DNA of 64,000 nt from Cutibacterium avidum ATCC 25577 (GTDB lineage Bacteria > Actinomycetota > Actinomycetes > Propionibacteriales > Propionibacteriaceae), in the NCBI RefSeq assembly GCF_000227295.1, contig NZ_JH165054.1, forward strand, positions 2,123,577-2,187,576, written 5' to 3'. Made by a program: the position numbers and the translations under genes. Shown here one piece after another: positions 59,995-62,715 of the stretch. The stretch's first letter is position 1. Every line of letters starts with the position of its first letter. The notes beneath the pieces were generated by a model. The model saw only the letters and a program-made list of their open reading frames with translations. It had not been told where the DNA came from and did no database searches.

Positions 59995-60669
59995 TCAGCG
60001 GCGCAGCCGCGGGGTGACGAGACCCAGCTCGCAGGCTCGCACCAGCACCTCGAGACGGCTTCGCACTCCCAGTTTCTTCGCCAGATGACCAATACGCTGT
60101 TTGACGGCAGACTCACTGAGGCACAGTTCTTCCGCGATGACAGCGTTCGACAGCCCCTCAGCGAGAAGCTTGAGGACGTCGTCGTCGGCGTTAGAGAGTT
60201 CCACCGGGTTCATGTCGACCTGACGAGGTGTTGCCTTACCCCCAACCTGGGCCGAGAAGGTCTCGACAACCCCTCGGGCGATCTCTGGTGAAACGGTCAC
60301 CTGACCGACCATGACGGCGCGTACCCCAGCGATGACGGCTTCGGGCTCGGACTCCTTGAGGAGATACCCGGCGGCACCGGCAAGGATGGCCTCGACGACG
60401 ATGTCCCGGCGGGCGAAGGTGGTCAGGGCGACGACGCGAACAGAAGGATGGCGGGAGACGATCATTCGGGTGGCCGTCAGACCGTCCATCTCAGGCATCT
60501 TGAGGTCCATGAGGACGACGTCGGGCAACAGCTGGTCAACGAGCTCGACGGCTTCACGACCGTTGGAGGCCTGACCGACGACCTCCATCTCCTCGACGCG
60601 GGAGAAATAGCCCGCGAGGGCCTGCCTCATGATCGGATGATCGTCAGTGACGACGAGTCGAACTGACAT
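59995..60669 (-). CDS. NarL/FixJ-type response regulator
   Basis: Response regulator of 224 aa: receiver domain with acidic pair DD 9–10, phospho-acceptor Asp55 in VLMDLKMPEMDG and Lys105; C-terminal LuxR helix-turn-helix (about 160–215, GLSNAVIAEELCLSESAVKQRIGHLAKKLG). SD AAGGAGG before the ATG. Divergent from the secreted peptide and the histidine kinase at 61130, its probable partner. Confidence 0.92.
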   Translation of the reverse strand: MSVRLVVTDDHPIMRQALAGYFSRVEEMEVVGQASNGREAVELVDQLLPDVVLMDLKMPEMDGLTATRMIVSRHPSVRVVALTTFARRDIVVEAILAGAAGYLLKESEPEAVIAGVRAVMVGQVTVSPEIARGVVETFSAQVGGKATPRQVDMNPVELSNADDDVLKLLAEGLSNAVIAEELCLSESAVKQRIGHLAKKLGVRSRLEVLVRACELGLVTPRLRR

Positions 60670-60892
60670 CGCACCTCCTTACGCTGGTTACCATCCTCGC
60701 ATGTCTGAGCAGTCCTCATGACAGCGGGTTCGACCCAGCGCCATTGACGAACAAATGATCACCGTCAGGCCACATTGCCGGCCATGTGCGCGGCCAACCG
60801 GCCCATGCGCACAGCATGTCGCTGCACGTGTCAGTGACATCCGCGCGACTCTCTGCATCCCGTTGTAGATGACCCCTCCGAAGGGATACATT

Positions 60893-61081
60893 GTGCCCAT
60901 GAAGAAAATCATCACCGGCATCGTGGCTGCCTTGGCAGTTAGCTCCTTCTCGATGGCAGCCCCCGCTCAGGCCTCCGCCGAGTCCACCCCTGTTCAGAAC
61001 GCCGTCAATACACAGCCAAAGGCACAAGTCAAGGGAATTATAGAAGGCTTGTGCGCCATCTATCCTAATTGGTGTGACTGA
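60893..61081 (+). CDS. Small secreted peptide precursor with C-terminal two-cysteine loop
   Basis: 62-codon ORF starting GTG CCC ATG; AAGGGA sits seven bases before the GTG. A lysine-led signal peptide (KKIITGIVAALAVSS) ends at the likely site AQA-S, leaving about 32–35 residues that end GLCAIYPNWCD; the two Cys are six residues apart and could form a loop. No known family. It lies between a response regulator and a histidine kinase, 48 bases before the kinase start, as peptide pheromones often do. Signalling role is inference; an antimicrobial or stress peptide is possible. Confidence 0.7.
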   Translation: MPMKKIITGIVAALAVSSFSMAAPAQASAESTPVQNAVNTQPKAQVKGIIEGLCAIYPNWCD

Positions 61082-61129
61082 TCCCATACCCAATATATAG
61101 GCCGTCTGGCCCATGGGGAAACGCATCAA

Positions 61130-62293
61130 ATGAATAGTGGTGCGTCTGGACGCCGCCTCATTCCCAAAGGGAGCAGTCGAACCTTTGGTATCACGGTTAC
61201 CGTCATCACTGTACTGGTGTTTTCCGGTGCGGACGATCTGCGTGTGGCTGTCGTAACTCACCGATGCGGCAGTACGATGATCTGGCTGGTAGCCACTTAC
61301 GTCTTCACCACAGTGGCTCTGCTGTGTTGGCAGCGTCCTGCACTACAGGAATTGCTACTGCTTGTCGGCCTGGTCAGTAGCGTCGCCGCGGAAAAGGTCG
61401 CATTTAGCATTCCTCTGTTGGTCGTGCTTGCATTCTTCGCCAGCCAACACGGTCTAAGACGCCATTTCATTCCGATTATTATCGGAGCCGCTGTTGTCAT
61501 GACCCGAGCGACTGCTCACGAAGAACGATGGGCTTCCATCCTATTGGTCGCAGGCCTCGCATGCGGAATCGGTGTCGGATTCGGCTCTGCATTCCGCTGG
61601 CTCGATCACCGCCGCAAGCAGGCGGAGAAACAAGCAGCTGACGCCCTCGAACAGGCAGCCCATGCCCACGAGGAAGAGCGCCAACAGTTGGCAGCCGAGC
61701 TCCACGATGTCGTGGCCAAGGATCTCACCGTCATCACCATGCTGGCGGGTTCCCTTCGTCTCAATACCGCTGACGAAGACGTCATCACGGCGTCGAAGTC
61801 CATTGAGACGACCTCCCGGACGGCCCTCGACGACCTTCAGCGCCTGCTCCTGGTGCTGCGAAACCAGAATCTTCCGCTGGTGTCCTCCCCCACCCACGAG
61901 GAGTCCGTCGAGGCCACCGTGGCAGCCATGGTGACGCGCCTTGAAACCTTGGGATGGCACGTCGACTGGTCGGTTGATTGCGAACCGATGCCAGTGAGTG
62001 TTTCCGACGCCGTCAACCGAATCCTCGACGAGTCGACCGCGAACGCGATCAAACACAATGGTCCGACCACGGCAAAGATTATTGTCAGAGACGATGGAGA
62101 TGACGTCGTCGTCACCGTCTCCAATCCGGTTACCGGATCCCAGATTGAACCCGTCCGTTCCACCGGGATGGGTATTGCGCGACTCAAGGAGCGGGTCTCC
62201 CTACTCCGTGGTGAGATCTCCATTGGTCTGCGCAATGGTTGGTGGATCGTCGATGCTCGGATCCCGCGCGCCAAACCCATTCGCGAAACCTGA
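61130..62293 (+). CDS. Sensor histidine kinase (HisKA_3 type)
   Basis: Membrane kinase of 387 aa. About five helices (20–160), a short coiled region, dimerisation and phospho-acceptor domain with His192 in AAELHDVVAKDL, then the HATPase domain (STANAIKHN N-box and TGMGIARLKERV G-box). Very little sits outside the membrane, typical of kinases that sense small peptides or membrane stress. Cotranscribed probably with the peptide ORF; pairs with the NarL-type regulator. Confidence 0.9.
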   Translation: MNSGASGRRLIPKGSSRTFGITVTVITVLVFSGADDLRVAVVTHRCGSTMIWLVATYVFTTVALLCWQRPALQELLLLVGLVSSVAAEKVAFSIPLLVVLAFFASQHGLRRHFIPIIIGAAVVMTRATAHEERWASILLVAGLACGIGVGFGSAFRWLDHRRKQAEKQAADALEQAAHAHEEERQQLAAELHDVVAKDLTVITMLAGSLRLNTADEDVITASKSIETTSRTALDDLQRLLLVLRNQNLPLVSSPTHEESVEATVAAMVTRLETLGWHVDWSVDCEPMPVSVSDAVNRILDESTANAIKHNGPTTAKIIVRDDGDDVVVTVSNPVTGSQIEPVRSTGMGIARLKERVSLLRGEISIGLRNGWWIVDARIPRAKPIRET

Positions 62294-62319
62294 TACTCCG
62301 TACAAGAACACACAAACAT

Positions 62320-62342
62320 GAGGCCGACATCACGCCGGCCTC
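62320..62342. terminator. Terminator after the histidine kinase gene
   Basis: GAGGCCG/CGGCCTC arms with a nine-base loop, 26 bases after the kinase stop. Confidence 0.55.
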
Positions 62343-62359
62343 CCGCTATCTCTGACAGC

Positions 62360-62698
62360 TCAGAACAGTCCAGCGTTCTGATAGTTATTCGTGTCGTTCC
62401 AGGTCCACTTCTAGGAATTGATGTCCTGGTCATTCCACGTGGTTCGGTCGTCAGGAAGGCGACCAGCCTGGGTGAGCGGCATCTCCCAGTCAGTGGTGCT
62501 GGTCGTCTCGAAGGCCTCATAGGGCTTGAAGGTGTCCCCCCATCCCGGGGAGATCACGGCGCGGTAGTCGTCCTGCTTGCACACCGGATGGGTGCTGAGC
62601 AGATTGGCTTTCACTGGACCGCTGGTGTCGGTGTGGATGATCGGCACGTTGTGATTAACCGTAGAAGTGTCGTCGTAGCCACCGCAGGTGGCCAGAGG
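62360..62698 (-). pseudogene. Lipoprotein gene remnant
   Basis: Minus-strand frame opening with LATCGG, a typical lipobox end, but with no signal peptide: an in-frame TGA comes two codons before it, directly behind the recO stop. About 90 residues follow, then a TAG, after which the same frame continues for 19 codons, KWTWNDTNNYQNAGLF, to TGA (62360). The similar TWND patterns on both sides of the TAG suggest one broken gene. No family recognised. Confidence 0.55.
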
Positions 62699-62715
62699 TC
62701 AGGCTCCAGACCGGG

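Follow-up and report, generated by a model that had tools for sequence, protein, structure and literature searches.

Does a short two-cysteine peptide, encoded between a response regulator and a histidine kinase in Cutibacterium avidum ATCC 25577, act as a signal for the kinase beside it? The question is raised by a stretch of 64,000 nucleotides of this 2.55 Mb genome, called the window here, in which the regulator is encoded on the reverse strand and the peptide and the kinase follow each other on the forward strand. This three-gene arrangement had been described in an earlier note, with 48 bases between peptide stop and kinase start, and it was borne out in both respects, with all three genes where they had been placed. 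The regulator (59995..60669, -) is a NarL/LuxR-type protein of 224 amino acids, with Pfam matches to Response_reg (E=1.6e-26) and GerE (E=2.4e-11). The secreted peptide precursor (60899..61081, +) counts 60 amino acids from its ATG, and the sensor kinase (61130..62293, +), of 387 amino acids, matches HisKA_3 (E=4e-12) and reaches 25.6 bits for HATPase_c (E=1.8e-5), just below the cut-off of 26.4. They are orthologous to pqsC, pqsB and pqsA of C. acnes, respectively. The window neighbours identified by Pfam are Fur, a class II tRNA synthetase (glyS in our reading), succinate dehydrogenase subunits and RecO; none of them is a gene for maturation or export, in agreement with the remark that no processing enzyme stood alongside. 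Between the kinase and recO, positions 62294-62715 are weakly conserved across species, and a frame found there without Pfam match (62411-62647, -) could be a gene remnant. We interpret the locus, with a probability of about 0.78, as a member of a class of peptide-pheromone two-component systems, in which an exported ring peptide is read by the adjacent kinase; disulfide, binding and regulon are inferred here, without data on any of them.

The peptide precursor carries the signal-like N-terminus and the C-x6-C tail (GLCAIYPNWCD) that had been noticed, both recognised by eye and not by a signal-peptide predictor. On this same footing a Sec signal peptide is likely at 60899..60973 (+), with the cut expected after AQA (residue 25), and the A-x-A at its end is kept in 7/7 orthologues. 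The C-terminal loop CAIYPNWC (Cys52-Cys59; 61052..61075, +) is proposed to be a disulfide ring on account of the motif CxxYPxWC, which is invariant in all seven Cutibacterium orthologues. Indeed, the alignment of the seven species contains 19 invariant residues, C52, Y55, P56, W58 and C59 among them, and no other part of the peptide has as large an invariant share as the ring, with five of its eight residues. Purifying selection acts on the frame, which is uninterrupted in all seven species (dN/dS 0.11-0.53 over 21 species pairs). The length of 62 codons first given to the precursor requires the GTG at 60893 and was not retained: the 60 codons from the ATG at 60899 are preferred because conservation starts there in all seven species and because the C. 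acnes transcript start overlaps the start codon, the orthologue being described in the pqsABC section of PMC3848588 as having a leaderless transcript. A promoter-like block (60863..60892, +; -35 TTGTAG at 60863-60868, 18 bases, -10 TACATT at 60887-60892) ends six bases 5' of this ATG and is present in the intergenic regions of the seven species, in weaker form in G004 and G005. It is the likely promoter of a leaderless peptide mRNA, the assignment of the two boxes being our own reading of the conserved bases. As had been supposed, the peptide matches no known family, in that it remains below every family cut-off of Pfam and NCBIfam; eight other peptides of the class also gave nothing over a Pfam or NCBIfam cut-off, and PHROGs returned weak matches only, for five peptides.

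The structure of the kinase was modelled with AlphaFold2, at a mean pLDDT of 62.8 (poor) and then of 74.5 (better). The models predict a sensor domain of six helices at residues 18-155 (61181..61594, +), read as membrane-spanning without the use of a membrane-helix predictor, and then the kinase core. In a fold search the matches were histidine kinases with low TM-scores (0.24-0.31 relative to the query), a bacteriophytochrome first and then DesK, with many DesK entries; given such scores and the absence of aligned ranges, this search tells us little about the sensor. Asp36 lies close to the end of helix 1 of the prediction and is the same residue in 22/22 aligned class kinases, while the rest of the sensor is very variable. 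The core shows a weak match to the envelope-stress kinase LiaS of NCBIfam (46 bits for a cut-off of 450).

Within the genus, peptide and orthologous kinase are both present in seven of nine genomes (G000, G001, G003, G004, G005, G006 and G007), and G002 and G008 lack both, having distant kinases only. The search for peptide homologues next to kinases that the earlier note had asked for gave 7/7 genomes with the orthologous kinase and 0/2 without it. In G008 fur adjoins recO with nothing of the set in between, as in an empty site; in G002 recO lies outside the stretch read. The regulator is 88-91% identical to that of the window in five sister species. In G003, which is C. acnes, the regulator (L031 7827-8482) carries a frameshift near residue 147 that puts the DNA-binding domain behind it out of frame; the peptide and kinase frames are open.

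The C. acnes copy has already appeared in print. In 2013 a putative quorum-sensing locus, pqsABC (PPA0945-PPA0947), was proposed for this species, then P. acnes, with a predicted extracellular signalling peptide preceding the kinase and a divergent regulator; for pqs a Leeds thesis of 2011 is cited (Guan 2011; PMC3848588). Both published pqs primers match G003 exactly, in the peptide and regulator genes, and G003 and the window share 78% identity in the kinase and 76% in the peptide. By gene order and orthologous sequence the window locus is the same as pqsABC, for which a quorum-sensing function was, in the section concerned, proposed and not shown. The locus itself is therefore not new. The two copies differ in that they come from different Cutibacterium species, and the pqsABC section of PMC3848588 deals with transcription, without ring motif, cross-species comparison or other genera. 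In the open-access literature, searched by locus tags and pqsB, this was the only paper found on the locus, and C. acnes pqs is the sole member of the class found in print there.

The sensor domain is by far the most variable part of the kinase. Across the seven species the identity of residues 18-155 is 36-73%, compared with 82-97% for DHp and 83-92% for the C-terminal part, and the neighbouring proteins tested are 86-97% identical to those of the window (sdhA and sdhC were not covered in G006). Sliding DNA identity drops near 60.7 kb and recovers near 61.6 kb; together with silent-site divergence it outlines an approximate variable stretch (60700..61640, assigned to no strand) comprising peptide promoter, peptide and sensor domain. 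Silent-site differences served as a measure independent of amino-acid selection. Between the window and G005 they amount to 0.33 (0.30-0.35) in the flanks, 0.40 in the regulator and 0.40 (0.33-0.48) in the catalytic part, versus 0.59 (0.44-0.74) in the peptide and 0.75 (0.65-0.84) in the sensor. The sensor interval overlaps neither flanks, regulator nor catalytic part, while that of the peptide is above the flanks but overlaps the regulator and the catalytic part. G004 displays a similar jump in the sensor, with 0.61 (0.45-0.77) for the peptide compared with 0.47 (0.45-0.50) for the flanks, so that the two intervals overlap. For G006 against G001, G003 and G007, the sensor reaches 0.66-0.80, the flanks 0.48-0.50 and the peptide 0.47-0.53.

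These jumps in three species suggest that sensor alleles have been replaced in G004, G005 and G006, which is the simplest reading of the silent sites. On the same data the peptide perhaps followed in G005, G004 is undecided, and in G006 the peptide did not follow. A joint replacement of peptide and sensor in both G004 and G005, considered at one stage, was withdrawn: the silent-site intervals do not support it for G004 and do so only partly for G005. Also dropped was the import of a cassette by the window's own species, as it is G004, G005 and G006 that hold the divergent sensor alleles by silent sites; the window shares its sensor type with G001, G003 and G007. In the close pair G003-G007 sensor silent sites are raised as well (0.46 versus 0.32), hence part of the rise may be regional. 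This counts against a simple import of the sensor, and the comparison of the window with G001, in which the sensor is less divergent at silent sites (0.49, 0.39-0.58) than the catalytic part (0.68, 0.60-0.77), counts for it. In AU tests the sensor rejected the flank tree (p 2.8e-6) and the peptide did so marginally (p 0.045), without rejecting the catalytic tree (p 0.36); these tests are merely supportive since unrooted topologies cannot show which lineage received the alleles. Furthermore, the second ring residue after the first cysteine goes along with the sensor type: rings of the form C-x-[IL]-YPxWC belong to the type of G000, G001, G003 and G007, C-x-Y-YPxWC to that of G004 and G005, and CAAYPRWC to that of G006. 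With only seven species this match is no more than a suggestion from the alignments. Outside Cutibacterium, three genera were compared: DHp is better conserved than the sensor in 30/30 pairs, and the C-terminal part is so in 20/20 pairs of g22 and g33 but in 0/10 of g4. Within the open-access literature searched, the sensor variation appears to be new.

Such variation could also surround a peptide that never leaves the dialogue of a cell with itself. Were it secreted as an inhibitor or co-sensor in an accessory role to the kinase, reporting the envelope state to its own cell, the peptide would be expected to show the same co-occurrence and the same variation around the sensor; the weak LiaS match agrees with this, and so does the peptide of G006, which did not accompany its sensor allele. 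Repeated replacement of sensor alleles, as in pherotype systems, would nevertheless have no obvious reason for a cell-internal adaptor, and it is the ring that concentrates the invariant residues of the peptide. We regard this explanation as unlikely and retain a cell-to-cell signal read by the kinase.

The occurrence of the set outside the genus was examined in 198 genomes of the family. Searched with the alignment of the Cutibacterium peptides, they yielded 7 strong matches, none of them outside the genus, and another 66 genomes showed weak matches (E up to 0.1); five of the weak places were inspected, one being the item of G027 described below and the other four overlapping longer frames. 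The class was reached from a kinase profile run on the same 198 genomes and then from the kinase flanks: a listing of 73 places, of which G098:C83 and G172:C151 were left out, and later a much longer one from which 29 loci and 40 further stretches were taken. This led to kinases of other genera that have, in the upstream flank, a short peptide bearing a signal and, close to its C-terminus, two cysteines. Altogether the divergent regulator, peptide and kinase set recurs at 48 loci, 7 of them in Cutibacterium, in 40 genomes and 11 genera of Propionibacteriaceae. The pattern C-x3-P-x2-C is present in 26/48 peptides and ring lengths vary from 4 to 11, with rings such as CYWLPNYC, CFWLPAYC, CYFFPRIC, CGWLPIAC, CHIAPLFC, CGIMPWMC, CYYLPFLC, CIVWPRAC and CTTLPWFC, and, in other spacings, CLFRIPRLC, CPIFPWLPMC and CFIAGFC. 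A divergent regulator lies 5' of the peptide in 41/48 loci (33, 6 and 2 from three scans, the first of which took 40 loci including L091, outside the 48). In L073 it is downstream on the same strand, and in six loci (L070, L071, L075, L077, L105, L111) the stretch read contained none. L091 itself was dropped from the final list: it matches the motif, without a convincing signal peptide and with the regulator on the same strand. Matches judged to be due to chance or non-adjacent, for example L097, L098, L113, L124 and the second ones of L111, L118 and L159, were not counted.

Several controls bear on the reality of the class. The fixed criterion demanded an N-terminus resembling a signal peptide, a pair of cysteines 4-12 apart close to the end, and a frame ending at most 1,500 bases 5' of the projected kinase start. 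It was fulfilled by 39/54 kinases scoring at least 180 bits with the class profile versus 2/49 lower-scoring ones (13 Cutibacterium paralogues included), where the two matches look like chance; with Markov-resampled upstream DNA the means were 2.75 (max 7) for the high set and 2.2 (max 4) for the low one. Seven of the 48 loci (L084, L156, L162, L163, L164, L166, L170) fail this criterion and come from other scans. As the profile had been built from 22 peptide-linked kinases, the high-scoring ones outside its rows and outside Cutibacterium were counted separately, and 16/30 have a peptide. A strict motif gave 14 matches in 68 loci (300 kb), compared with a mean of 0.15 (max 2) in 20 dinucleotide shuffles. 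Of the kinases outside the family, the 16 with the highest scores (176-197 bits) all lack an adjacent peptide, and their regulator is directly downstream on the same strand; among four further kinases within the family, two have a peptide (L199, L201) and two lack it. On a quick tree of 103 kinases, which carried long-branch warnings, the 47 labelled as peptide-linked (L091 included) all belong to a single group of 58 rows (support 90), and 0/45 of the others are so labelled. Within the open-access literature searched, this family-wide class appears to be new.

Some loci show further features. Eight of the 40 genomes (G059, G195, G080, G095, G074, G083, G078 and G089) hold two peptide-kinase sets each, mostly with rings that differ, a hint that one cell may run parallel channels. 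The peptide-linked kinase of L118 (1945-3084, G057) seems disrupted near its C-terminus while the peptide frame is open, and in six peptide-linked places (G195:C22, G019, G156, G024, G153, G146) the matched kinase frame contains one stop, so that some of these six copies are possibly broken, or else the match may extend beyond the real end of the kinase. Long kinase frames, read as 762-1046 amino acids with N-terminal parts lacking a Pfam match, are found in L199, directly behind the peptide, and as an additional kinase in L162, L163 and L166. A second kind of short secreted peptide, with the tail GRIIWCC in L045 (5189-5368, +, G027) and GRRIIWIA in L056 (1495-1668, -, G123), lies directly 3' of a NarL-type regulator and a kinase on the same strand and may be another signal.

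Two other explanations leave cell-to-cell signalling aside. Short, secreted, with a hydrophobic two-cysteine tail and no known target genes, the peptide might be a small bacteriocin-like effector, in which case the kinase would sense the peptide or the damage it does and control immunity or production; no immunity or transporter gene was seen among the window neighbours checked, however, and the window peptide and eight of its class stay under the Pfam and NCBIfam cut-offs, and we consider this very improbable. That the small frame is a mere leader region of the kinase mRNA without functional product, as its shortness and its position just 5' of the kinase might suggest, is scarcely credible with the dN/dS values and the invariant CxxYPxWC given above and with two-cysteine secreted frames 5' of such kinases in 10 other genera.

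The window set is real and probably functions as a peptide-signal system, with no biochemical evidence so far and with the action of the peptide on the kinase inferred. The gene set, its co-occurrence, the conserved ring, the hypervariable sensor and the recurrence in the family are established as far as sequence comparison can do so. In the mechanism that we propose, the precursor would be exported through the general secretory pathway (Sec) and lose its signal peptide thereafter, and the two C-terminal cysteines would oxidise into an eight-residue ring, C-A-I-Y-P-N-W-C, possibly trimmed further. The adjacent kinase may then recognise the secreted ring through its membrane domain of six helices, perhaps around Asp36, and would pass its phosphate to the divergently encoded NarL-type regulator. 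Over time, sensor alleles and, in part, the peptide would be replaced while the output half remains constant, and the window set would represent Cutibacterium in a class that many Propionibacteriaceae possess. Export, the disulfide, binding, the signal's direction and the target genes are all inferred. Counting against this explanation are the sensor of G006, replaced without its peptide, the overlapping peptide intervals of G004 and G005, the raised sensor of the pair G003-G007, the weak AU results for the peptide, the variable ring length (4-11), the frameshifted regulator of G003, the sensor pattern of g4, the stops in kinase frames and the lower peptide counts beyond the profile rows (16/30 and 2/4). 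For the family as a whole, we find it reasonably likely that Propionibacteriaceae hold an old and unrecognised pheromone class with a Sec-exported two-cysteine ring (typically hydrophobic-C-x-x-x-P-x-x-C), no dedicated maturase, a membrane-embedded HisKA_3 kinase and a divergent NarL-type regulator, whose sensor alleles are exchanged across species as pherotypes.

Should the rings prove to be signals, Cutibacterium would possess a peptide language with species-specific dialects, also in the common skin species C. acnes, and many of its relatives would have one too. A ring pheromone without adjacent maturase would then join the known Gram-positive peptide signals, the specificity between kinase and pheromone could be tested with cheap synthetic peptides, and there would be a handle on the community behaviour of skin and environmental actinobacteria. 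Similar sets with different rings hint at widespread and little-studied signalling in Propionibacteriaceae.

The locus had initially been likened to autoinducing peptide systems. A signalling pair of peptide and kinase is indeed supported, by the strict co-occurrence in the genus, the hypervariable sensor and the recurrence in the family with different rings, but its nearest analogue is ComX/ComP/ComA and not Agr. In staphylococcal Agr a ring peptide is sensed by a polytopic kinase and there are specificity alleles; the kinase is AgrC, the regulator AgrA is of LytTR type and the peptide is a thiolactone. The window, in contrast, has HisKA_3 and GerE domains and two cysteines. AgrB was found in 0/9 genomes of the genus; 14 control genomes gave one match and none over the cut-off, so the search is no proof that a true AgrB would be detected. 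With no AgrB match and with HisKA_3/GerE instead of AgrC/LytTR types, membership of Agr is not met. ComX, for its part, is isoprenylated by ComQ. The window peptide gave no match to the ComX family up to E=1 in Pfam and NCBIfam, and no ComQ-type prenyltransferase was identified by Pfam among the window's neighbours. Unlike ComX, the peptide has a classical signal peptide and a two-cysteine tail, and the regulator is divergent, whereas the four genes of comQXPA, including that of the isoprenyl transferase ComQ, are on one strand (PMC4008528). Membership of ComQXPA in the strict sense is accordingly not met, for lack of a ComX match and of a ComQ neighbour and with the regulator divergent. The ComX receptor ComP is described in PMC4008528 as a HisKA_3 kinase whose N-terminal membrane domain varies and whose cytoplasmic domain is conserved, and comQXP as polymorphic, with pherotypes, in PMC4408185. 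Bacillus ComQXPA and the window have in common an exported peptide, a multi-helix HisKA_3 kinase and a GerE-type regulator, and the best reading of the locus, by analogy, is that of a ComX/ComP-like pheromone system without a maturation gene.
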